In this document: one piece after another, positions 31,049 to 45,420 of the stretch
Numbering within the stretch: the stretch's first letter is position 1
How the letters are laid out: each line of letters starts with the position of its first letter
Assembly (NCBI RefSeq): GCF_006575665.1
Contig: NZ_CP041253.1
Span: 4,708,501-4,772,500, forward strand
DNA length: 64,000 nt
Direction of reading: 5' to 3'
Source of the DNA: Echinicola soli
Lineage (GTDB): Bacteria; Bacteroidota; Bacteroidia; Cytophagales; Cyclobacteriaceae
Notes under the pieces: model-generated
The model's database searches: none
What the model was told of the DNA's origin: nothing
Seen by the model: only the letters and a program-made list of their open reading frames with translations
Position numbers and translations under genes: made by a program

Positions 31049-31300
31049 AAAGGGGACTTGGTTTTAGTTTATTTGTACGCCAATTACTATTATGTAAGCT
31101 AAGGCACGTCATACCTCCGTAATACCCACAAAATATCAGCAAAAAAAGCGGATATTTTGTTTCCATTGGTCAAAAAAATAGGGGAACCTTACACCATATA
31201 CTACCAAAACTTAAAAAATACTCCATTTTGGGTATTTTATAAGAAAACCAAAACCATTATTTTGAGGATGAATAAAAAGAAAAGATAAATCAATAACATA

Positions 31301-31324
31301 AAAAAAGGCGAGTTGCCCCGCCTT
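31301..31324 (-). terminator. tracrRNA terminator
   Basis: AAGGCG (31305-31310) and CGCCTT (31319-31324) form the stem. On the minus strand the hairpin is followed by seven T residues and lies directly after the tracrRNA body. Confidence 0.9.
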
Positions 31325-31371
31325 GAATGTTTTCACAACGGAATAATCCTTATTGTGAATTGCTTTCAGAA
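31303..31371 (-). ncRNA. tracrRNA of the type II-C CRISPR system
   Basis: On the minus strand, 31369-31353 reads as a perfect 17-nt anti-repeat; the plus-strand form is TTGTGAATTGCTTTCAG. It pairs with positions 2-18 of the CRISPR repeat read in crRNA sense, plus a possible G-U at position 1. After it come a short nexus-like stretch (AAGGATTATTCCGTTGTGAA), the family-typical sequence of Bacteroidota type II-C tracrRNAs as I recall them, and a strong terminator hairpin. With the promoter at 31374-31404 the transcript should be about 70 nt. It is divergent from the cas operon. Its orientation requires crRNAs to be transcribed from the minus strand of the array. Confidence 0.92.
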
Positions 31372-31373
31372 AG

Positions 31374-31404
31374 GCAAGATACAAATTGGACCATAATAAC
31401 CAAA
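31374..31404 (-). promoter_or_regulatory. tracrRNA promoter (Bacteroidetes type)
   Basis: On the minus strand TTTG (31404-31401) is followed, after exactly 19 nt, by TATCTTGC (31381-31374), close to the Bacteroidetes consensus TTTG-N19-TAnnTTTG. Transcription would begin a few bases further, at the anti-repeat. The CRISPR repeats carry TTG-N19-TACCTTGC with the same spacing and the same deviation from consensus. Confidence 0.75.
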
Positions 31405-31413
31405 CTACTTCTC

Positions 31414-31665
31414 ATGAAAATTGATAGAAAAGAATTTTTAAAGGCATACGAAAATATTGTTTTGCCGAATTTGATGGATGCCGAAGCCAAATTAGAAAGG
31501 CGAGTCACGCATAACCAATCACTTTATAAAGTCAACGTTGGCATTTGGACAGACTTGGTTGTGAATCCCCCTACAGCAAGTGACCTTCCCCTAAGTGATC
31601 AGCCCGCTGATGATACAGATGACATTAATAGAAGAAGAACAATCTATGATATTAAAGTAAGATAG
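31414..31665 (+). CDS. Uncharacterised small protein coupled to cas9
   Basis: The ATG at 31414 opens an 83-codon frame whose TAG (31663-31665) ends 1 nt before the cas9 ATG, an arrangement typical of translational coupling. The protein starts MKIDRKEFLKAYENIVLPNL, has a helical, charged N-terminal half and a proline/aspartate-rich middle (NPPTASDLPLSDQPADDTDD), and ends RRRTIYDIKVR. It has no signal peptide, membrane segment or known domain that I recognise. The frame stays open upstream to an ATG at 31327, but that stretch is the tracrRNA gene in antisense, so the shorter form is preferred. It could modulate Cas9, help adaptation, or only serve as a leader peptide for cas9 translation. Confidence 0.6.
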   Translation: MKIDRKEFLKAYENIVLPNLMDAEAKLERRVTHNQSLYKVNVGIWTDLVVNPPTASDLPLSDQPADDTDDINRRRTIYDIKVR

Positions 31666-31666
31666 G

Positions 31667-34600
31667 ATGAAAAGAATATTAGGACTTGATTTAGGAACAA
31701 ACAGTATTGGCTGGGCAATGGTTGAAATAAACCACAAAAAAGGAACTCTAAAAATTTTAGGGCTAGGCTCACGGATATTACCAATGGATGCCACAGAAAT
31801 TAAGGACTTTGAAAGCAGTGGTAAAATAAAAAGTACCGCAGCACAAAGAACAGAAAAAAGAGGTTCAAGACGTTTAAATGAGCGCTATTTACTAAGGAGA
31901 GATAGATTGCATTTGATTCTTGACTTGCTTGATGCACTTCCTAAACACTATAAACTTGAAATTGATTTTACCAATTCAAAAGGTGAGAAGTGCGGACAGT
32001 TTAAGCCAAACAAAGAACCAAAACTTGCCTATTTGCCTAAGCAAAAGGGTAAAAAAGCAGAATTCCTCTTTATGGATTCATATAAAGAAATGCTTGATGA
32101 TATTGGAAATGAAGAAATAAAAAATGAGAACGGTAAGCGGATTCCTTACGATTGGACTTTGTATTATTTGCGACAAAAAGCACTTTCCGAGAAAATAGCT
32201 TTAGAAGAACTGGCTTGGATTCTTTTAAGCTACAATCAAAAGAGAGGCTATGAAAAAACTGAAGTAGAGGATAAATCCACAAAGGAAGGTGAAATAGTTG
32301 AGGAACTTGATTTACGAGTAAAAGAAGTTATTTCTAAGAGAACTGAAGAAGGAAAGCAATTCTATGAAGTTCATTTAGACGGAAATGACAGTTTTATTTA
32401 TAATGAGTATTCGGATATTCAAATGACCTTTAAAGATGATTTAAAAGAGGTAATAAAAACATCTAAAGTTGACGAACAGGGTAATACAGATGATAAAAAA
32501 TCAGAATTTAAGGTCGTTGATATTTATCCTCTAAAGATAATGAAGGTTAATTATAAAAAAGAGAGCAGGAAACATAAGTACACATTGAAATATCATAATG
32601 GTTGGGAAGAAAATAAACCTCCCAGGGAGAACTATACTTTCAATTACAACAATGCAATTAATAAGTTCTACGACTATATTATAGAAACAGTTTATGATAA
32701 TACTGGAAACCTTAAAACTCAACAAGGAAAAGAGAGAAAACTAAGAGAACCGGATTTAAACGATAATTCAAGTGATTGGACTTTAATGAAAAAGAAAACA
32801 GAAAAAGAAGCATTGAAATTTAATAGTTTGAATGGCTATTTGGATGAAAGAGATAATGTAAAAAATTACATATCTCCCAAGATATACAATGTTTTAAAAA
32901 ACGATGCCAAAACTGGCAATCGTACCAAAATCATTGGTGGAATATTTCAAGTGGTGGATAGAACCTTTTATTGTGAAGAACTCAACCAAATCATTTGTAC
33001 ACAAAAGAAGTTTCACTCCAGTCTAGAAGATAAAAAAGTGTTTGAACAATGTGTAAAAACATTATATCCCAAAAATAAAAGCCACCAAGAGTCTTTATTA
33101 AAAAACAAAGATGCCATTCAGCATTTATTGGTAGATGATGTTTTGCTGTATCAAAGACCATTGAAAAGCAAGAAATCAGAGATTGCCAACTGTAAATATG
33201 AGATACGCTATTGGAAAAATATTGAAGATAAAAACGGCAATCCTATTGAAAACGTTGATTTAGAAACAGGAGAGTTGAAAGTAAAAAAGGAGCCTGTTTA
33301 TATTAAAGTGGTTTCTGCATCACATCCTTATTTTCAGGAATTCAGGATTTGGGATAAACTGCATAATTTAAGGTTGATTCAACTTGAAAAGGAAGTTGAT
33401 GGAAGGTTATTAACCAATCAGGATGTTACGAAAGAGTTTTTTAAAAGTGAAAAAGAATATCAAGAGCTTTTTGAAATGTTGAACAACCGAAAATCTTTAA
33501 ATCAAGACCAATTCCTTACTTATTGTAAAAAGAAATTTAATATTGATTACCAGAAAAAAGACAGTAATTACGCTTGGAATTTTCCAGATGATGAAGAAAT
33601 AAAAGGTAACGAAACGAGGGTGAGTTTTGTCACACGTTTTAAGCGATGGGGATTTAAGGAATATGCCGATTTTCTTACGCAAGAAAAAGAAAAGGAGTTA
33701 TGGCATTATTTGTATTCAGTCAGCTATAAAGAACGAACGGCAAATGACAATAAGAGTGCCTCTACTTTTTTCAATAACTATTTTAAAGATTTCAACATTG
33801 ACAATGAAATTAAAGAAAAAATCATCAAGGACTTTATTAATTATCCAATGTACACTTCAAGAAATTGTGCATATTCTGAAAAAGCACTAAAAAAATTAAT
33901 TCCAATAATTCAAAAAGGCAATAAAGACAAAAAATATACTTGGGAAAATGAGGTTTGGCATAAGAAGTGGAAATCGACACTTGAAAAAAGAAAGTCAGAA
34001 ATACTAAACAGACTAAGTAAGATAAATTTTGAGCTACAGGATGATGAGAAAGTTGATTATTCCAAAGTGGTCGTAACTAATGTTGATTTACAAAAAGGTG
34101 AAATTCCATTTCCAAAAGGCTTGTTCAATACTTTTAGGGAATTTGAAAAAGTAGAAGCTTTTAAAGACCTAAACCTTACACAAGCCTCGTATTTGGTTTA
34201 TGGTCGTCATTCGGAATTGCCACAAGCCAAATATTGGACATCGCCTGAAAAAATCAGAAAACAGCTTCACCAAGAACTAAAACAACACTCTTTAAATAAT
34301 CCTGTTGCCGAAAAAGTCATATTGGAAATGATGCAGGTAGTGGCTGATATATGGGATTATTATGGAGAAAGGGAAGAAGGGTCAGACAACCCTAACAAAC
34401 TGTTTGACCGTATTCATTTGGAAGTCGGAAGAGAATTGAAAAAATCTGCCAAAGAAAAAGAAGCTGAATCCAAACGAATGTCAGGAAATCGTGCCCAAAA
34501 CAAACGAATCCGACAAGTGTTAGAGGAATTTTTAATGCATAATCCATACAATGCTAATCCAAATAACAAAGACCATTTTGAGCGATTGAAAATTGTCGAG

Positions 34601-37090
34601 GAAGGTGCGGAAGATAGAAATAATTTGGACAAGAATTTTTTTGAAGAGAATGAAGAACTGAGAAAAGAAAATATCACTAAAAAAGATATTGAAACTATTC
34701 TCAAAAAGCCACAAATTACTATAGGTGATTTTGAGAAATATAAACTTTGGATAGAACAGGGATACCGTTCTCCTTATTCGGGACAGATAATAAAGATAAC
34801 AGAGTTGTTTGATGGTAAAAAATACAACATCGACCATATTTTCCCCCAAGCATCTATAACGAATAATTCATTGAGCAATAAAGTTGTTGTTGAAGTAGAA
34901 TTAAATAAGCTGAAAAGTAATAAAACTGCAAGAGTCTTTATTCAATCCCAAAATGGGCAGCCTTACTTAGGTATTCCTGTCTGTACAGAAGAAGATTATA
35001 TAAGTATTGTTAAAACCCAATTCTCAGGCACAAAACGATACATTCTACTTTCTAAAGACATTCCAAAAGGATTTATCAACAGTCAAATGAATAATGCTCG
35101 CCACATTGCCCGAAAAGCAATGGAGTTGTTAAGCCACATTGTGAGAGAACCAGGAGAAGTAGAATTCCGCTCCAAAAATGTACTTCCGGTTACAGGTAGG
35201 GTTACAACTGAACTAAAAAGAGCTTGGAAGCTTGACCAAGTTTGGAGAGAGTTAGTTGCTCCACGATTCATTCGGATGAATGAATTAACTCAATCCAATT
35301 TATTCGGAGACTGGCAGATTTCAAAAAACGGGCAAGAGTATTTTGATTGTAATCTGGACGAAAGTATTCGGGAAAAAGATGAGTCTTATGATATCAAACG
35401 TATTGACCATCGCCACCACGCTTTAGATGCTTTAATTGTAGCATTGTGTACGGAAGAACATTTTCACTATTTAAGCAACATCAATGCCGATAAAAAATTG
35501 AATGATTTTGGTAAGCAGAAAAAGTTAGAGGACTACAGATTGAAACTAAAACGAAAAATTAAGTTTACAATAAAAGATGACGAAACAGATGAAAAAAACT
35601 GGCGTTTTATGTTACCGGGAGAAGTCCGTAAAGCAGACACGGAAAATTCCAGGAGGGACTCTGTTTTAGAAATGGATTACCAACACAAAGAGTTCTTTTC
35701 GTTTGGGCAAAACTATAAAAAAATGATTCTTACGACTTTGCAGGGCACTATAGTCACGTTCAAACAAAACCTACGGGTCATTAACAATAGAGTAAATTAT
35801 TACCAAGCAGAACCAAACACAAAAAAGAGAAAAATACAAGAACCCAAGACACAAAAAGAGATTGTAAATTCAAACAATAAATACAATTGGGGAATCCGAA
35901 GAAGTTTAGGGGAAGCGACTTACTATGGAAAGAAAATAGTAAACGGGGAAGACAAGGCAACAATCAGAAAAGATTTGGATACATTCTTTAACAGTGAGAA
36001 AATTAAGACTATTTCAGATAGTGCAGGTCGTGTAAAATCTATTCTATTGAACCAGTTAAAGCGTTTCGACACTATTAAACTTCCTTTTGAAAACGCTGTT
36101 AATTACCTTGATTTTCTATTTGAGAAACAAGAATTCGGAGCTATTATAAGCGATAATGAAAATGAATTTCAATCTATTGATGATTTAATAGCCCATTTAC
36201 GAGAAAACAAATTCAAATATAAAAATACAGATTATTCAGAGTTGAATGTTTTTATAGATGGAATTTCCGAACGGGATTTTAGAAACGAAAAACAGTTTGA
36301 AGGTAAAATCAAAGAACACCCTGATATTGCATTTACACCCGAAGCGATTGGGGAAATGAATAAACCTGAAAATCTCCGAAAATTGAACAATGGAAAAGAC
36401 CACAAGCCAATACATAAAGTAAAGGTTTCACGAGGTTTTGGAAAACGTAGAGCCTTAAATGAAGAAAATGAGAATTCGATTAAATCAAAACAGTATGTGG
36501 TAAATGATGCAGGGTCGAACCTTTATCTTGGCTTTTATGCTCGAACCTATCAAGAGGACAACGGCAATAAACTGGTAGAAAGAAAATTTAAGGATGTTGG
36601 TCTTATTGAATTAATTGAAACACTAAAACAAGATGTGACTAAACGATTAAATCCCCTACCAAATAAAATTTATGATGACAAATTAAACGAATACAGTTGG
36701 GAATTTACATTATCGCCCTTGGACTTAGTATATGTACCAACTGATGAAGAAATTGAAAATCCTGGAAAAGTTGATTTTAATAATCTAACAAATGAACAGG
36801 TAGATAGGATATATAAATATGTTGATGGTAATAGAGATATAGCCAACTTTGTCCCTTACTCTAGTTCAAAACCCATTTGGAGATTCCATGGAAAAAAGAA
36901 CAAGGAAATCTTTAAAGAATTAAATGACAATGATAAAATTAATATTTCTGAAAAAAAGTTGATCCAGAATGAATTTGGACTTGGTAGTCAGCAAAATAAG
37001 AATCAAAATATGATTGATGGTAAAACCCAGATAAAAAAAATATGCTGGAAACTAAAAGTGGACAGGTTAGGGAATATTTCAAAAGATTAA
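31667..37090 (+). CDS. cas9: Cas9 endonuclease, type II-C, unusually large (1807 aa)
   Basis: All nuclease motifs are present. RuvC-I is MKRILGLDLGTNSIGWAM with D8. The arginine-rich bridge helix is at about 59-85 (RTEKRGSRRLNERYLLRRDR). RuvC-II is FDRIHLEVGRELKK with E919. HNH is NIDHIFPQASITNNSLSNKV with D1056-H1057 and a downstream Asn. RuvC-III is IDHRHHALDALIVAL with H1251 and D1254. About 550 residues follow RuvC-III (WED/PAM-interacting region), and the recognition lobe between bridge helix and RuvC-II is about 830 residues. SpCas9 has 1368 residues, and familiar Bacteroidota II-C proteins are about 1400-1500, so extra material is spread over REC and the C-terminus. There is no internal stop. 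The gene is markedly AT-rich compared with cas1/cas2, which start 3 nt downstream. No csn2 or cas4 is present, hence II-C. Confidence 0.98.
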   Translation: MKRILGLDLGTNSIGWAMVEINHKKGTLKILGLGSRILPMDATEIKDFESSGKIKSTAAQRTEKRGSRRLNERYLLRRDRLHLILDLLDALPKHYKLEIDFTNSKGEKCGQFKPNKEPKLAYLPKQKGKKAEFLFMDSYKEMLDDIGNEEIKNENGKRIPYDWTLYYLRQKALSEKIALEELAWILLSYNQKRGYEKTEVEDKSTKEGEIVEELDLRVKEVISKRTEEGKQFYEVHLDGNDSFIYNEYSDIQMTFKDDLKEVIKTSKVDEQGNTDDKKSEFKVVDIYPLKIMKVNYKKESRKHKYTLKYHNGWEENKPPRENYTFNYNNAINKFYDYIIETVYDNTGNLKTQQGKERKLREPDLNDNSSDWTLMKKKTEKEALKFNSLNGYLDERDNVKNYISPKIYNVLKNDAKTGNRTKIIGGIFQVVDRTFYCEELNQIICTQKKFHSSLEDKKVFEQCVKTLYPKNKSHQESLLKNKDAIQHLLVDDVLLYQRPLKSKKSEIANCKYEIRYWKNIEDKNGNPIENVDLETGELKVKKEPVYIKVVSASHPYFQEFRIWDKLHNLRLIQLEKEVDGRLLTNQDVTKEFFKSEKEYQELFEMLNNRKSLNQDQFLTYCKKKFNIDYQKKDSNYAWNFPDDEEIKGNETRVSFVTRFKRWGFKEYADFLTQEKEKELWHYLYSVSYKERTANDNKSASTFFNNYFKDFNIDNEIKEKIIKDFINYPMYTSRNCAYSEKALKKLIPIIQKGNKDKKYTWENEVWHKKWKSTLEKRKSEILNRLSKINFELQDDEKVDYSKVVVTNVDLQKGEIPFPKGLFNTFREFEKVEAFKDLNLTQASYLVYGRHSELPQAKYWTSPEKIRKQLHQELKQHSLNNPVAEKVILEMMQVVADIWDYYGEREEGSDNPNKLFDRIHLEVGRELKKSAKEKEAESKRMSGNRAQNKRIRQVLEEFLMHNPYNANPNNKDHFERLKIVEEGAEDRNNLDKNFFEENEELRKENITKKDIETILKKPQITIGDFEKYKLWIEQGYRSPYSGQIIKITELFDGKKYNIDHIFPQASITNNSLSNKVVVEVELNKLKSNKTARVFIQSQNGQPYLGIPVCTEEDYISIVKTQFSGTKRYILLSKDIPKGFINSQMNNARHIARKAMELLSHIVREPGEVEFRSKNVLPVTGRVTTELKRAWKLDQVWRELVAPRFIRMNELTQSNLFGDWQISKNGQEYFDCNLDESIREKDESYDIKRIDHRHHALDALIVALCTEEHFHYLSNINADKKLNDFGKQKKLEDYRLKLKRKIKFTIKDDETDEKNWRFMLPGEVRKADTENSRRDSVLEMDYQHKEFFSFGQNYKKMILTTLQGTIVTFKQNLRVINNRVNYYQAEPNTKKRKIQEPKTQKEIVNSNNKYNWGIRRSLGEATYYGKKIVNGEDKATIRKDLDTFFNSEKIKTISDSAGRVKSILLNQLKRFDTIKLPFENAVNYLDFLFEKQEFGAIISDNENEFQSIDDLIAHLRENKFKYKNTDYSELNVFIDGISERDFRNEKQFEGKIKEHPDIAFTPEAIGEMNKPENLRKLNNGKDHKPIHKVKVSRGFGKRRALNEENENSIKSKQYVVNDAGSNLYLGFYARTYQEDNGNKLVERKFKDVGLIELIETLKQDVTKRLNPLPNKIYDDKLNEYSWEFTLSPLDLVYVPTDEEIENPGKVDFNNLTNEQVDRIYKYVDGNRDIANFVPYSSSKPIWRFHGKKNKEIFKELNDNDKINISEKKLIQNEFGLGSQQNKNQNMIDGKTQIKKICWKLKVDRLGNISKD

Positions 37091-37093
37091 AAA

Positions 37094-38327
<1,234 letters not shown>

Positions 38328-38521
38328 ACTTTAAAATTTAGCTATTGTATTATAAGGGGGCAAGGGGAAAGTTGGGGATAATTTTTTATGGAACACTGAT
38401 CACACTGATAGGGCAGATTTTTATGGATCAATGGATATTCTGGATGATACTGACCCCTCTCCGGGGATATTGACCCCTCTAAAAGTTGGTTTGGTCCTGT
38501 GAATCCAATGGTATGACAATT

Positions 38522-39247
38522 TTACATTTTTTTTCTTAGACTTTCACCTTTAAGTTCGATTCTGTATGATGAGTGTACCAATCTGTCAAGAATAGCGTCG
38601 GCAATTGTTTCTTCTCCAATCACCTCATACCAGCTGGATACGGGCAATTGGCTTGCGATGATGGTGGATTTCTTCCCGTGCCGGTCCTCAATGAGCTCCA
38701 TAAAGTCCATCTGATGCTGTTTTTCCAGATGTGTGAGCCCAAAATCATCCATGATGAGCAGGTCGGCTTTTGCCAACTTGTCAAAGAACTTGATAGCGGT
38801 GCCTTCCAGCCTTACCATCTTGGTTTTGAGCATCAGTTTCTGGGTATTAAAATAGGCGGCCTTGAACCCTTGGATACAGGCCTGGTGTCCCAGTGCGGAT
38901 GCGAGGTAACTTTTACCACAGCCGGTGGCCCCTGTTATCAGCACCGATTCCCCTTTGGTGATGTAGTCTCCGGTGGACAGGGATGCCAGCACCATATCGT
39001 CCAACCCCCTGGTTTTATCAAGCTTGAGTTCTTCCAGGGAGGCCTTATACCTGAATCCGGCATTGGACTCCAGCCTTCTGAACCTCCTGTTGTCCCTTTC
39101 CTGCTCCTCGGCCTGGAGCATCATCTCAAGGCCTTCTGTCAACGTGAGGTTTTGGGTTTTGCGGGTTTCCTTCAGGGCTGTCCATGTTTTGGACATGCCG
39201 TGCAGTTTAAGCCTGGTCATTTGTGCTTCGATCTGATTCATATTCAT
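38522..39247 (-). CDS. istB: IS21 transposition helper ATPase IstB
   Basis: The 241-residue protein is an AAA+ ATPase of the IstB/DnaC group. Walker A is LITGATGCGKSYLASALG (around residue 103), Walker B is DLLIMDDFGLTHLE, sensor-type residues lie in STIIASQLPVSSWYE, and the C-terminus carries AILDRLVHSSYRIELKGESL. The N-terminal helical part (LKLHGMSKTWTALKETRK) is the IstA-interacting region. It starts 6 nt after the istA stop, the usual arrangement of the two-gene IS21 operon, and is full length. Confidence 0.97.
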   Translation of the reverse strand: MNMNQIEAQMTRLKLHGMSKTWTALKETRKTQNLTLTEGLEMMLQAEEQERDNRRFRRLESNAGFRYKASLEELKLDKTRGLDDMVLASLSTGDYITKGESVLITGATGCGKSYLASALGHQACIQGFKAAYFNTQKLMLKTKMVRLEGTAIKFFDKLAKADLLIMDDFGLTHLEKQHQMDFMELIEDRHGKKSTIIASQLPVSSWYEVIGEETIADAILDRLVHSSYRIELKGESLRKKM

Positions 39248-39253
39248 TAAGTG

Positions 39254-40834
39254 TTAAAATTGGAGTTTCTGTTGGTCGTAATATTCCTTGCCCCGGACAT
39301 TGTCGTGTTTGGGCAGGGCTTTTTGTGTAGTATCGGGCTGTTCATAGGCCATGTTGTTTTCAAGGATGTTCCTGATAAACCCATAAGAATAGACCTGGTG
39401 ATCCATGGCTATTTTGCAGGCCCTGTCAAAGGTATCCGGGTCGGACTTCCTGCTTAAGGCCAGTAAGCCATCACAGGTTCTGTAAAGCTGCTCGGGATAC
39501 CGGTTCTGCTCAAACAGCAAGGATACATATTGATAAAGAACTGCTGATTTTTTACGGGCAAGCTCCCGGTAGTATTCAGGGCTCCTATCCCTGTAATGCC
39601 TGTGCTGGGAACACAGATGGTCTTCAACGGTAGAATAGCCGCCCTTGGTGCTTCTGGCATGGACGGCTACCTTTTTACCTTCATGGTACACATAGAACAT
39701 AGACCTGGTGTAGACTACCTTCACTTTCTTGCCAATAAGGGTATACGGGACACTGTAATATTGCTTGTCCCTTGCCAGGTAAACATGGTTGTTTTTTGCC
39801 ACAGTCAGCAAGGCATGGTACCGTAGCTCAAACCGGTCCTCGGGAAGTTTTCCCAACAGGGGTTTTTCATCGGCCAAAAACTTCTCTTCCCGGCAGTAGG
39901 GCTTGCGCTGCATCCGTGTCTGGTTATGTGCCCTGATCCGCATTTTAATGGCCTGGTTGAGTGCATAAAGGTCAAAGAACTGCATGTTCCTCAGCTTGGC
40001 ATATACTCTGGAGTAGAGCATGTTGACCTGGTTCTCGACCAGGGCCTTGTCCTGAGGCTTTCTGACCCTTGCCGGCAGGACAGCCGTACCGTAATGATTG
40101 GCAAAGTCTTCCAGTGCCCGGTTGATATCCGGTTCGTACTTGTCGGCCTTGTTCACTGCTGACTTCAGGTTGTCAGGGACCAGCAGGGAAGGGACTCCGC
40201 CCAAATGTTCCAGGCAGCAGGCCAGGGCATGGAGAAAATCAGCTATACGCTGGCTGGGCACGGCCATGGCAAAAGCATAGTCCGAACAGGGCAGGCAGGC
40301 CACAAAAAACTGGCAGGAAATGACTTCTCCGGTTTCCCGGTCTATGTAGTCAATCGTTTTGCCGGCAAAATCAATATAAAGCTTTTCCCCGGGCTGATGA
40401 TCAAGTACCATAGTTGGTTTTGATCGGGCAAGATCATGCTGGTCAAGGTGATGGCAGAACTGTGAGTAGCTGTAACCATCCGGATGGGACTGTCTGTATT
40501 CTTCCCATAAAAGTGCCCTGGTAACCCCGGTACGCTTCAGCTCTTTACGAAAATATTCAAGACGCATTTTAAAATGATCGTACCGGGGATCCTTATAGGA
40601 AGGGTTGCCAGGATGGAAACGGGAATGGATCTCCGGCTCTTCAAGGGCGAGCAGATCATCTATGGTTAGGCTCGTACCTGTCTGCCCCAGCAGCTTTTCC
40701 AGCTTGACCAGGTAGGCTTTTACGGTATTCTTGCTCATGCCAAGCATTCGGGCAATGGTCTTGATCCCTTTGCCCTGCTTGTTGAGAATGATCAATTGTT
40801 TTATCTGACTCATTGGTTTTGGTTTTCCTGCCAT
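39254..40834 (-). CDS. istA: IS21 transposase IstA
   Basis: The start is probably at 40834 (MAGKPKPMSQIKQLIILNKQ) or 40813, giving about 520 residues. An N-terminal helix-turn-helix (GKGIKTIARMLGMSKNTVKA) binds the terminal repeats. The DDE catalytic core is complete: Asp in GEKLYIDFAGKTIDY, Asp in VPSLLVPDNLKSAVN and Glu in PQDKALVENQVNMLYS. The Mu-transposase-like C-terminal beta-barrel follows. It is intact, so the element may still be active if IstB is expressed. An upstream in-frame ATG at 40900 overlaps the terminal repeat region and is less likely. Confidence 0.95.
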   Translation of the reverse strand: MAGKPKPMSQIKQLIILNKQGKGIKTIARMLGMSKNTVKAYLVKLEKLLGQTGTSLTIDDLLALEEPEIHSRFHPGNPSYKDPRYDHFKMRLEYFRKELKRTGVTRALLWEEYRQSHPDGYSYSQFCHHLDQHDLARSKPTMVLDHQPGEKLYIDFAGKTIDYIDRETGEVISCQFFVACLPCSDYAFAMAVPSQRIADFLHALACCLEHLGGVPSLLVPDNLKSAVNKADKYEPDINRALEDFANHYGTAVLPARVRKPQDKALVENQVNMLYSRVYAKLRNMQFFDLYALNQAIKMRIRAHNQTRMQRKPYCREEKFLADEKPLLGKLPEDRFELRYHALLTVAKNNHVYLARDKQYYSVPYTLIGKKVKVVYTRSMFYVYHEGKKVAVHARSTKGGYSTVEDHLCSQHRHYRDRSPEYYRELARKKSAVLYQYVSLLFEQNRYPEQLYRTCDGLLALSRKSDPDTFDRACKIAMDHQVYSYGFIRNILENNMAYEQPDTTQKALPKHDNVRGKEYYDQQKLQF

Positions 40835-41078
40835 TGGATCACGGTTAGTGGTATATAAATCATCCGCTAAAAAACCAAAACCAGCATTATGAGGGGGCAA
40901 TATGTTCCGGAATCTGACAACAGAGGGGTCAATATGCTCCGGAATTATTGCTGAAATATTACTTTAGGGGGTCAGCATCCGCCGGAATGGCAGTTGAAAA
41001 CAGCCGCTTAAGCCACTTTTCAACCTCCGGTTCATTCCCGGATCATGGGGTCAACATGCTCCGGAATATCCAGATCAA

Positions 41079-41814
41079 GCAATATTTCTGGGGGCGGGAG
41101 AAGATTTATATTCATTTGGTATGTCGCCACGAAGTCGCCAAGACACGAAGTTTTTTTGTAGGCGGATTCCAAATTTCATGGAAAACAAACAGCTTTGGGT
41201 CTTGGAATCTTTGTGGCAAAAAAACAAAAAAGAAATCCTATTAAAATAAAGGGATTCATGCCCTCAACTTTTTCGCTTGCCTCCTTTTTAGCACATTTTG
41301 AGGGCCAAGCAATATTTCTGGAAGATGAGAGATTTCCAGGTGGTTTTGGTAAGCATATTTCTCTTTCATTTAGCAATAGGAATGTGTAGATTATAAAATC
41401 AGTATAAATCCGTCATTGCGAATGCAGAGCAACGGAGTGAAGCAATCTCGTTTTCTTAATACGGGATTGCCACGTTCCCGATAGCTCGGGACAGGCTATA
41501 CTTCCTCGCAAGGACGGTATTTTAAATCGCGTTTATTATAAAAAATCAGCGCAAATCTTATTAATCTGCATCATTTGCGTGCTATCGAAACCAACCCTAA
41601 TCCCCCCAACTTTTCCGCTTGATCCATTTTTATTGCTGTCACCAAGGGTGCGGGAGCAAAAGGAATCTCCGCATCAATAAATTTTGGAGCGAATCAGGTA
41701 ATGGGCCATATACACTTCAAACAACAGAAATTTACAATAAATATTTCCGCATCGCTCACAAAATTTCTCTATCAAAACAGGCTCATTTTTCAATCCCAAA
41801 AAACCACATAAACA
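41079..41814. other. Intergenic region made of dispersed repeats
   Basis: The stretch between the IS21 target duplication and the CRISPR array has no supported gene. About 41120-41220 matches 63190-63303 in inverted orientation (see the repeat entries). About 41410-41520 is a copy of the CATTGCGAA...GTGAAGCAATCTCG...CGCAAGGACGG type of dispersed repeat also seen near 1840, 4330 and 6300. The motif CCCCCAACTTTTCCGCTTGATC (41596 onward) recurs near 63570. These are decayed, mosaic sequences; no leader features can be defined. Confidence 0.6.
41120..41220 (+). repeat. Dispersed intergenic repeat, copy A
   Basis: The sequence beginning ATGTCGCCACGAAGTCGCCA and containing CCAAATTTCATGGAAAACAA is shared, in inverted orientation and with scattered differences, with 63190-63303. 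Both copies lie in gene-poor repeat-rich DNA. Confidence 0.8.
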
Positions 41815-41849
41815 ACAGCATACCAACCACTTGAAGTGGGGTATGCTGT
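41815..41849 (-). terminator. Terminator-like hairpin at the downstream end of the CRISPR array
   Basis: ACAGCATACC (41815-41824) pairs with 41840-41849, and CCACTT/AAGTGG pairs inside it. The right arm overlaps the first five bases of repeat 1. Read on the minus strand (crRNA direction) the hairpin is followed by TTGTTTATGTGGTTTTTT. This supports crRNA transcription from right to left. Confidence 0.6.
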
Positions 41850-42743
41850 GATTACCATTGCAAGGTATAAGTCTGAAAGCAATTCACAACTAATTGGGAA
41901 TTAATACTGAAACCAATGGTGCTGTGATTACCATTGCAAGGTATAAGTCTGAAAGCAATTCACAACCGATATTGTTTTCATCTTTTAAATGATTCAGCTG
42001 TGATTACCATTGCAAGGTATAAGTCTGAAAGCAATTCACAACGCCGCTAACACTTTCAATTCATATGGACATGCTGTGATTACCATTGCAAGGTATAAGT
42101 CTGAAAGCAATTCACAACTGATATTGTTTTCATCTTTTAAATGATTCTGCTGTGATTACCATTGCAAGGTATAAGTCTGAAAGCAATTCACAACTACGCC
42201 AGAAATGGTAAAATGGCATCGTGCGCTGTGATTACCATTGCAAGGTATAAGTCTGAAAGCAATTCACAACAACAGGGAGTTATGATAATGTTTTCTTTGA
42301 GCTGTGATTACCATTGCAAGGTATAAGTCTGAAAGCAATTCACAACAAGGAGTTTATAGAGGTTGATTGGCAACAGGCTGTGATTACCATTGCAAGGTAT
42401 AAGTCTGAAAGCAATTCACAACGCATGTGTTTCAAAAGATACATGTTAGGAGGCTGTGATTACCATTGCAAGGTATAAGTCTGAAAGCAATTCACAACTG
42501 CTGAATTTTTCAATCTGACTCACTGATAGCTGTGATTACCATTGCAAGGTATAAGTCTGAAAGCAATTCACAACATGGCGCTACTATCGCATATACTCTC
42601 AAGTGCTGTGATTACCATTGCAAGGTATAAGTCTGAAAGCAATTCACAACAGTAGCTCTATTTTTCTTCTGATTCTATCGGCTGTGATTACCATTGCAAG
42701 GTATAAGTCTGAAAGCAATTCACAACACACAACTGGAAAAAGA
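41845..42743 (-). CRISPR. CRISPR array, left segment: 12 repeats, 11 whole spacers and half of spacer 12
   Basis: Identical 46-bp repeats start at 41845 and then every 76 bp up to 42681 (12 repeats); all spacers are 30 bp. In plus-strand form the repeat opens GCTGTGATTACCATTGCAAG and closes GCAATTCACAAC. The tracrRNA anti-repeat shows that the functional (crRNA) sense is the minus strand, opening GTTGTGAATTGCTTTCAG. In that sense the repeat contains TTG (positions 2-4), 19 nt, and TACCTTGC (24-31), a promoter-like pair. Spacers 2 (41967-41996) and 4 (42119-42148) are identical over their 28 central bases. The segment ends where IS66 entered spacer 12: the first 17 nt of that spacer are at 42727-42743. 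Confidence 0.99.
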
Positions 42744-42793: not shown

Positions 42794-44293
42794 TTATTTA
42801 GGTCGGTACTGCTTCCAGTTGGAAGGGAGGAGCTGATAAAGGTCTTTTTGTTTATGGCTTTGTATTCTTTCAAAGACATCTTTGAGCCATTCAAACTCGT
42901 TAACATTGTTCTTTTTGCAGCTGGCCATAAAGGAATACATGGCTGCGGTCATCTCTGCGGCTTGGTGCGATCCGGCAAAAAGGAAGGCTTTTCTGCCGAT
43001 TGCCAAGGGCCGGACAGCATTTTCCACAAGATTATTATCCAGCTCCATCTGTCCGTGAAGCGTATAGGCACTTAACCCCGCCCACCTGGAGCGGGCATAG
43101 TCTATAGCCTTGCCCAGCGGGCTTCCCGGCCTGTACCTGTATTGGTTTTCCTCCAACCACTTCCCAAGTCTTTCCAGTACGGGCACGGCATGGATTTTCC
43201 TTTCCCGCGTCCGCCCCTCCCAGTCCAGGGCTTCTTCCCTCATCCGTTGTTCGAGTGCATAGAGCTGCTGTATCTCATCCAGAACATGGTTTGCCTGCTC
43301 GGCATAATCCTTGACCGCATCGACAAAGTACCTTCGCGCATGGGCCATACAGAAAGTCAAATGGATATCAGGATGGTTCCCATAGAGAGAATCATAGACT
43401 TTCCACCCATCGGTCTGGATGATACCCTTAAAATCAGTAAGCATTTCTTTGGGGCCGGATCTGTCCCTTCCCTTTCTGTAATCAAAGAGCACCAATCTGT
43501 CCACCGGGGCATGGTATAGCCACATGTATCCTTTATGGATACCGTTTTTATGGTCCCTGTCCAGGACTTTTATCGGGGTCTCATCGACTTGGAGGTACTT
43601 TTGACTGATGACCACCAGACTGAGTAGCTCCCAGAGAGGCCTGAGCTGTTCCCAACCTCTCATTACCCAGTCTGAGGCGCTTGAGGCAGGTATCCGTACG
43701 CCCATTTTACTGTACTTGTCAATCTGCCTGTGCAGGGGCATCCCGTAGACATATTTGTCGACAGTAAGCTGGGCGATTACCGATTCGGAAGGTATACCTT
43801 TTTCAATTACCCTGTCCGGCAAGGTGCCGATGATGATCCCTTCACCGTTTGGCCTGGCATATTTTGGGCGTATATACCGCTTTACATAGAAACAGGCAGG
43901 AACAACCTCCAATACCTCGGTAATCTCCTCACCGATCCTCACACAGCCTTCGGTAGATTCGGCCGGTTCGATCACGATCTCTTCTCTTTCAAGTTCTTCG
44001 GGAAGGCTCATACGGCCCGTACCCTTGGCCCTTTTCTTCGGTGCAGGCTTCTGTTCCTGCACGGATACCGATTCTGAGAGCTCCTCCTGTACTGCTTTGG
44101 TGGTGCCCAGTTCAAAAATCCCCAGCTGGTTCTGGTCGGTACTGCCCGTCCGTTTCTCGCTTTTGGTGCCAAAAATATACCTGCGGAGTTTGTCCAGTTC
44201 CGACTGTAGGTCGGCGATGGCGTCTTCTTTTTCGGACACGGTCAACAAGGCTTCTTCATACAGTTTTTTGTAGTCGGTTCCCTTGTTTTCCAT
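42794..44293 (-). CDS. tnpC: IS66 transposase TnpC
   Basis: The ATG at 44293 (MENKGTDYKKLYEEALLTVS) gives 499 residues, with an N-terminal coiled coil (EKEDAIADLQSELDKLRRYI) and the IS66 linker. The earlier ATG at 44392 would overlap tnpB and is less likely. A helix-turn-helix/zinc-finger-like region lies around residues 110-150. The DDE core is present: LQVDETPIKVL, GIIQTDGWKVYDSL and NNLVENAVRPLAIGRKAFLF. The gene is complete and ends about 50 bp from the left inverted repeat, so the element is probably capable of transposition. Confidence 0.97.
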   Translation of the reverse strand: MENKGTDYKKLYEEALLTVSEKEDAIADLQSELDKLRRYIFGTKSEKRTGSTDQNQLGIFELGTTKAVQEELSESVSVQEQKPAPKKRAKGTGRMSLPEELEREEIVIEPAESTEGCVRIGEEITEVLEVVPACFYVKRYIRPKYARPNGEGIIIGTLPDRVIEKGIPSESVIAQLTVDKYVYGMPLHRQIDKYSKMGVRIPASSASDWVMRGWEQLRPLWELLSLVVISQKYLQVDETPIKVLDRDHKNGIHKGYMWLYHAPVDRLVLFDYRKGRDRSGPKEMLTDFKGIIQTDGWKVYDSLYGNHPDIHLTFCMAHARRYFVDAVKDYAEQANHVLDEIQQLYALEQRMREEALDWEGRTRERKIHAVPVLERLGKWLEENQYRYRPGSPLGKAIDYARSRWAGLSAYTLHGQMELDNNLVENAVRPLAIGRKAFLFAGSHQAAEMTAAMYSFMASCKKNNVNEFEWLKDVFERIQSHKQKDLYQLLPSNWKQYRPK

Positions 44294-44369
44294 AGCGTAA
44301 AAATAAGCTAAAAAAGTGGCTATACAGCTATGTAGGAGCTGTTTTTTTACGTCAAAAACAATTGTTTTT

Positions 44370-44717
44370 TTACCCCCTTTTTGAGCTGTCATAGCGCCTT
44401 CTGTAGCTCACCGAATCGAGCATTACCCCCTGTAAGAGCAGGGTCAGCTGACCGCCCGAGATCATGTTTCCCGCAAGCTTGGGCCGCTCAAAAGTGCCCT
44501 GTTCCAGCTTTTTGATATACAGGGCAAAACCGTCCCTGTCCCATTGGAGAAGCCGCACCTGGTTGGACCGCTTGCCTATGAAGATGAAGATGTCCCCGTT
44601 CATCGGATCAAACCCAAGTTCATTTTGCACCAGGCCGGCCAGCGAGTTGATCCCAAAGCGCATGTCGGTCGGCTGACCGTAAAGAAAATACCGGACCGAG
44701 TTGGACAAGGCCAGCAT
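44370..44717 (-). CDS. tnpB: IS66 accessory protein TnpB
   Basis: The 115-residue protein has the IS66 Orf2 signature (YFLYGQPTDMRFGINSLAGL, then GDIFIFIGKRSNQVRLLQWD and GFALYIKKLEQGTF). It is required together with TnpA for transposition in studied IS66 elements; its biochemical role is unclear. Its start overlaps the tnpA stop by one base, indicating translational coupling. Confidence 0.97.
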   Translation of the reverse strand: MLALSNSVRYFLYGQPTDMRFGINSLAGLVQNELGFDPMNGDIFIFIGKRSNQVRLLQWDRDGFALYIKKLEQGTFERPKLAGNMISGGQLTLLLQGVMLDSVSYRRRYDSSKRG

Positions 44718-45076: not shown

Positions 45077-45420
45077 AACACTGAAAAATGCTGTGATTAC
45101 CATTGCAAGGTATAAGTCTGAAAGCAATTCACAACTTTTTAAATGTTTAAAGTTTAAAAATTGTAGCTGTGATTACCATTGCAAGGTATAAGTCTGAAAG
45201 CAATTCACAACTGCCGAAATCTTAACCGTTCCCGCATCGTTGCTGTGATTACCATTGCAAGGTATAAGTCTGAAAGCAATTCACAACGACGCGTTGAATA
45301 AATTAAATTCTAGTTTTGCTGTGATTACCATTGCAAGGTATAAGTCTGAAAGCAATTCACAACATAGGCTCCTGCTGTGGGCTGGATGCCCTCGCTGTGA
45401 TTACCATTGCAAGGTATAAG
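45077..45420 (-). CRISPR. CRISPR array, right segment: 4 full repeats plus one truncated repeat
   Basis: After the second half of spacer 12 (45077-45089) repeats start at 45090, 45166, 45242 and 45318, each 46 bp and identical to the left segment, with 30-bp spacers. A fifth repeat starts at 45394 but stops after 27 bp (45420), where unrelated gene-like sequence begins. In crRNA sense this is the first repeat of the array: it keeps the TACCTTGC element but has lost its first 19 bases including TTG. The whole array therefore has 17 repeat units and 16 spacers. No leader is left on this side. Confidence 0.98.

Follow-up and report, generated by a model that had tools for sequence, protein, structure and literature searches.

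The window, a 64,000-nucleotide stretch of the Echinicola soli genome (contig NZ_CP041253.1), encodes a type II-C Cas9 of 1807 amino acids beside cas1, cas2, and a CRISPR array. To judge from its sequence, this protein is very probably an intact member of a clade of large Cas9s related to CbCas9 of Chryseobacterium, most likely an ordinary dual-RNA-guided nuclease, whose gene seems to have been swapped in place behind guide components that the locus kept. CRISPR RNA (crRNA) from the 46-nucleotide repeats would pair with a trans-activating crRNA (tracrRNA) encoded just upstream on the opposite strand, and the HNH and RuvC domains, as their motifs suggest, would cut the target. The cas9 body would have replaced a cas9 of about 1500 codons through recombination close to the conserved ends of the gene, with the tracrRNA, array, cas1, and cas2 of the locus all retained. 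Such a replacement may be workable because the tracrRNA core appears to be common to these Cas9s. The features of the locus are listed in Table 1.

Integrity and family of the 1807-residue Cas9

The cas9 frame is open from ATG to TAA through 1807 codons, and its product scores 259.5 bits against the NCBIfam Cas9 profile TIGR01865 (cut-off 100). Pfam recognizes the bridge helix, HNH_4, and RuvC_III domains, and residues D8, E919, D1056, H1057, N1080, H1251, and D1254 are invariant across 31 aligned sequences, the query included. The uninterrupted frame and full set of RuvC and HNH catalytic residues reported in a preliminary description of this DNA are thus both borne out, and these motifs predict RNA-guided cleavage. 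SpCas9 has 1368 residues, with D10, E762, H840, H983, and D986 in its numbering. Measured against that numbering, the window Cas9 carries excesses of about 159, 60, 51, and 171 residues, in agreement with the spacing first described.

The type II-C class likewise holds. The split RuvC and HNH Cas9 retains its catalytic residues; cas1 and cas2 adjoin it and are the sole adaptation genes recognized among the open reading frames (ORFs) scanned; and the sequence contains a CRISPR array and a predicted tracrRNA with anti-repeat and terminator. A scan of sense-strand ORFs in and near the locus, which did not extend to short and antisense ORFs, recognized no csn2 or cas4. An assembly error behind the extra length is unlikely, because the genome is a single contig of 5,550,304 bases, 100% complete, and many relatives of similar length align with 100% of the window Cas9.

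Large II-C Cas9s of this kind are a known, common, and under-studied group, found mainly in Bacteroidota and related to CbCas9, since database homologues and genome loci alike hold many full-length large forms. A protein search scored at least 7998 candidates, 6990 of them at E ≤ 0.001, and the best 120 were examined by similarity, a ranking that favors long Cas9 forms. Among the best 119 besides the query, 112 have at least 1700 residues (1721–1970), two have 1600–1699, and five are shorter. The Cas9s of Sinomicrobium oceani (1800 residues) and Xanthomarina gelatinilytica (1801 residues) are each 77% identical to the window Cas9 over its full length. Genome contigs yielded 351 stretches encoding a Cas9 relative, from which 76 loci were kept; 70 have an open Cas9 frame longer than 1350 residues (range 1446–1893, the shortest, L010, ending at a contig edge, and L007 starting at one). 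A Cas9 tree of 68 rows separates the large forms (at least 1640 residues) from the rest, including the Cas9s of about 1500 residues, and places the window Cas9 within a 30-row set of large forms with support 99; L015, whose frame is incomplete, is the sole short row among them. The preliminary description had called this Cas9 exceptionally large and Cas9s of its size rare. It is far above laboratory Cas9s in length, but relatives of 1721–1970 residues are common in databases and the large forms make up one clade, so the claim of rarity is not supported. The description had also allowed that homologues of about 1800 residues might turn out to be common and well described; they are common, whereas "well described" fits the smaller relative CbCas9 only.

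CbCas9 is absent from the rows of the Cas9 tree, and the kinship rests on sequence and structural matches. It is the best sequence match among solved structures (PDB 8iyq, 8wmm, 8wr4; 608 bits), the only close one, and the best structural match of both modeled halves of the window Cas9. Both proteins are type II-C enzymes with a beta-rich region in the recognition (REC) lobe, and in the structure model that of the window Cas9 is likely the counterpart of the CbCas9 beta-REC2 domain. They differ in length (1442 versus 1807 residues): the REC segments of the window Cas9 are longer, and it has an additional C-terminal segment. This added mass, which makes the REC lobe and the C-terminal region larger, does not accompany a different guide. 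CbCas9 also binds an accessory protein, PcrIIC1 (PMC13153721), which is a PIN-domain protein (PMC13153721, PMC12669027). By contrast, no PIN-domain match, and thus no PcrIIC1-like gene, was recognized in the sense-strand ORFs scanned around cas9 (17280–52399), short and antisense ORFs again lying outside the scan.

Discordant Cas9 and Cas1 behind a shared guide RNA

Four types of Cas9 (1807, about 1500, 1451, and 1377 residues) occupy the site between the same flanking genes within one genus, and the Cas1 proteins beside them are 82–93% identical to the window Cas1. The congener genome G399 shares the flanking genes, Cas1 (92.6% identity), and Cas2 with the window, but its Cas9 has 1494 residues and is 32% identical; the locus of G400 is similar (Cas1 89.2%, Cas9 1503 residues). 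Between the same flanking genes, G398 encodes a Cas9 of 1451 residues and G397 one of 1377 residues, the latter sharing 22–27% identity with the other Cas9s in local alignments and scoring 392 bits against TIGR01865. DNA identity to G399 and G400 is about 0.9 from the end of the upstream ORF into the first cas9 codons, falls to 0.42 from position 31721, and returns to 0.85–0.87 from position 37091; homology is thus lost about 50 bp inside cas9 and regained at its final codons. The window Cas1 groups with 16 rows from small-Cas9 loci in the Cas1 tree (support 99/100), whereas its Cas9 lies among the large forms. Cas9 and Cas1 are therefore discordant at this locus; the discordance is observed, and the direction and route of replacement are inferred. 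Cas1 proteins in the other large-Cas9 loci read are at most 58.8% identical to the window Cas1, in line with an exchange of cas9 at the window. G397 (L182:5407-9775) still carries, between a HIRAN-domain gene and the 1377-residue Cas9, the opening 31 codons of an earlier cas9; a second repeat-like stretch also precedes the 1377-residue Cas9.

The guide RNA does not follow the size of the Cas9. A 32-nucleotide tracrRNA core was searched for in 80 sources (the window, L005–L080, and L123–L125) and is exact in 63, carries one to four mismatches in 10, and was not found in seven, where the best 11–13 mismatches equal those of shuffled sequence. Of these seven, L036 has upstream sequence that lacks the core, and in the other six the cas9 match starts at most 125 bases from a contig end. 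Cas9s of 1453–1893 residues go with the exact core. Among the 71 sources with a frame longer than 1350 residues, the core accompanies 29 of the 32 large Cas9s and 37 of the 39 small ones, the truncated L010 counted as small. A repeat bearing GTTGTGA occurs in all 54 arrays detected, and 47 of these repeats are 46 or 47 nucleotides long. The preliminary description had suggested that the added mass could mean an altered guide architecture; core and repeats are alike in large and small Cas9 loci, which speaks against any adaptation of the guide to the larger Cas9, and the idea was rejected.

The repeats also share a motif. In a scan of the CRISPR repeats of 54 loci (52 distinct), TTG-N15-23-TAnnTT occurs on the crRNA strand in 50 of 54 arrays and on the opposite strand in four (shuffles: mean 13.3, maximum 23), and the strict form TAnnTTTG is found in 15 of the 54, against a mean of 0.8 and a maximum of 5 in shuffles. 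Of the two forms, the window repeat satisfies the relaxed one only. The motif is consistent with a promoter in every repeat, an arrangement proposed earlier for Flavobacterium.

It is very unlikely that the 1807-residue cas9 is ancestral at the site and that the congeners acquired shorter ones. Four different Cas9s at the site within the genus mean that no single one is proven native, but the Cas1 rows with which the window Cas1 groups all come from small-Cas9 loci, and the G+C content of the window cas9 (32.7%) lies below that of the G399 cas9 (38.3%) and of the window (44.5%). Several points weigh against the exchange of an ordinary nuclease into this site. The 5′ homology break could partly reflect constraint, the first cas9 codons being conserved in protein, although the DNA identity extends also over the bases just before the cas9 ATG. 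The call on the native Cas9 rests on a small sample, because four congeners with this site were compared. Model confidence for the C-terminal half is modest (predicted local distance difference test, pLDDT, 74; predicted template modeling score, pTM, 0.52). An IS21-family insertion sequence (IS) separates cas2 from the array, and an IS66 element splits the array. Finally, partial searches of phages, plasmids, and viral contigs, with the host's own genome outside the search, found no protospacer and gave no protospacer adjacent motif (PAM). The spacers of array part 1 (11 of 15) drew five phage records at E of about 0.9 and one plasmid record, probably through that record's own repeats, and viral contigs contained no exact match to four patterns that cover five of the 15 spacers.

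That the extra REC and C-terminal mass confers a new property, be it a different PAM, an additional partner, or a further activity, along the lines of the preliminary description, is unlikely. In its favor, residues 1481–1540 are kept in 15 close relatives of about 1800 residues (93% filled) and mostly absent elsewhere (0–28%), and the smaller relative CbCas9 has its PcrIIC1 partner (PMC13153721). Apart from a deleted HIRAN remnant, however, the ORFs scanned near cas9 include no recognizable partner gene; the guide RNA core is unchanged and both halves model like CbCas9, neither of which bears on the PAM. It is highly improbable that the Cas9 is a non-working leftover of a decaying locus. The deleted HIRAN gene and the two IS elements at the array would suit such decay, but the 5.4-kb frame is intact with its catalytic residues, the tracrRNA parts are complete, and the array holds 16 identical 46-mers and a truncated 17th repeat. 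An intact Cas9 of the large clade, exchanged into the site and guided in the ordinary way, remains the preferred reading.

Table 1. Features of the Echinicola soli CRISPR-cas locus, in window coordinates.
Feature	Position	Strand	Basis or remark
Predicted tracrRNA: anti-repeat, core, terminator hairpin with T run	31300..31370	-	Anti-repeat complementary to CRISPR repeat; conserved core; 5′ end undefined
83-codon HIRAN-gene remnant	31414..31665	+	First 7–10 codons fused in frame to last 73–76
cas9, type II-C, 1807 residues	31667..37090	+	Open frame, family profiles, catalytic residues
cas9 body without close DNA homology to G399/G400, taken as exchanged segment	31720..37050	+	Limits rough, ~30 bp
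Beta-rich REC region, residues ~205–360	32279..32746	+	Structure model
Low-confidence linker, residues ~1365–1419	35759..35923	+	Model residues 486–540 below pLDDT 50
Segment, residues ~1461–1550, unaligned in CbCas9, modeled partly helical	36047..36316	+	Alignment and model
cas1, type II	37094..37987	+	TIGR03639, 294.1 bits
cas2	37980..38327	+	
IS21-family istB and istA, between cas2 and array	38522..40900	-	
CRISPR array part 1: 12 identical 46-nucleotide repeats, 11 spacers of 30 nucleotides	41845..42726	-	Minus assumed to be the crRNA strand (5′ GTTGTGAATTGC...)
IS66 transposase and TnpB, splitting array	42794..44717	-	
CRISPR array part 2: 4 identical repeats and truncated fifth	45090..45419	-	Separated from part 1 by IS66 element

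The HIRAN-gene remnant and the insertion sequences

The ORF just upstream of cas9 is the remnant of a HIRAN-domain gene that has lost its middle, including the N-terminal half of the HIRAN domain. A hidden Markov model of the roughly 160-residue HIRAN family matches the 83-codon ORF at E = 2.4e-9 over its C-terminal part only; by itself, the ORF has no Pfam match up to E 10, and a complete HIRAN domain is not present. G400 and G397 encode 168-residue copies that start with MKIDRKEFLK and end with NFYDIKVR, and the window ORF shares this start and the terminal YDIKVR. The intact copy of L006 matches PF08797 at E 8.3e-11. The ratio of nonsynonymous to synonymous substitution (dN/dS) is 0.11 between the G400 and G397 copies and 0.23–0.25 between the window remnant and those copies, a span that includes time before the deletion. 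Two other identities were rejected: the ORF is not a homologue of PcrIIC1, a PIN protein, as its alignment is with HIRAN proteins and a search of solved chains gave no match (best E 1.6); and 31327–31665 is not a 112-residue gene, as its first part is the tracrRNA region of the other strand and the ATG at 31414 is the start common to congeners.

HIRAN genes or remnants lie beside or near cas9 in six of the 76 loci: L006, L012 (broken), L013 (deleted), L025 (partial), L030 (about 1.7 kb away), and L036. HIRAN-like genes also occur near cas9 in genomes G396, G397, G400, G091, and G538. A family sample has the tracrRNA core in 38 of 245 genomes and HIRAN at four of the 30 loci read, the window being one. 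A sample of 395 genomes from across the phylum contains 26 with a HIRAN match (E ≤ 1e-6); the flanks of about 1.5 kb contain a cas9 match at three of these loci (the window's own, G091, and G232, which is partial) and none at 23. The gene is intact beside the 1503-residue cas9 of G400, in G397 although a distant cas9 replaced the older one, and in G396 although cas9 appears broken and the genes that flank the window's site are absent; G399 has a broken copy, and G398 gave no match. In G396 the cas9 frames are broken at two loci or more (L120, L125), and a HIRAN gene lies near each of them. The link between the HIRAN gene and Cas9 is suggestive only, because 23 of the 26 matches have no cas9 nearby and the gene outlasts broken or replaced cas9, which also weakens the case for HIRAN as a dedicated Cas9 partner.

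In humans, HLTF strips Cas9 from cleaved DNA, and for this it depends on both its HIRAN domain and the 3′ end that the RuvC cut releases (PMC11237066). This requirement is the ground for proposing that the small HIRAN protein may be a recurrent accessory of Bacteroidota II-C Cas9s that would bind the RuvC-freed 3′ end and aid the release and turnover of a long-dwelling Cas9, its gene here deleted beside an exchanged Cas9; by analogy with HLTF, such a role is conceivable but quite improbable. Intact relatives of the upstream gene have a HIRAN domain of the same family (PF08797) as that of HLTF. Unlike HLTF, the bacterial proteins are about 160 residues long, a length without a motor domain, and in the window copy the N-terminal half of the domain is missing. 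On its own, the human HIRAN domain inhibited HLTF without removing Cas9 (PMC11237066), which disfavors a motorless HIRAN protein acting alone. Literature searches on HIRAN and CRISPR, whose hits partly matched the surname Hirano, found no published report of a HIRAN gene beside cas9, and the term is absent from the main text of PMC10910872 in the part available.

The stretch between cas2 and the array (38328–41773), which holds the IS21 element, is about 170 bp in G399, whose array of about 42 repeats is unbroken. Four short repeats like GGGGTCAATATGCTCCGGAAT lie at 40893–41067 near the IS21 end. Spacers 2 and 4 (41921–42118) have 28 of 30 bases in common and differ only at the first and last base; their shared core has no exact match in viral contigs.

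Probable Cas9 exchange at a conserved site

Exchange of cas9 genes is a known process, of which the window is a clear new case. In Flavobacterium psychrophilum, Fp2Cas9 replaced another type II-C cas9 at its native locus, and interference was demonstrated (PMC10309648); a related exchange has been described in Flavobacteriales (PMC12669027). The Fp2Cas9 locus resembles the window in its swapped II-C cas9, IS-split array, and proposed repeat-borne promoter (PMC10309648). It differs in that the window Cas9 is about 300 residues longer than, and 32% identical to, those of its congeners, with breaks near the first and last codons. Among the cases found, the evidence suggests that this size step exceeds any described, though no literature search was aimed at that point alone.

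One chromosomal CRISPR site can thus host Cas9s of 1377–1807 residues while Cas1 stays 82–93% identical to the window Cas1, and the common tracrRNA core is offered as the reason that exchange across Cas9 sizes is tolerated. This shared core makes possible a direct test of how far Cas9s can be swapped behind one guide RNA. The uncharacterized HIRAN gene beside cas9 may also be relevant to the departure of Cas9 from DNA that it has cut.
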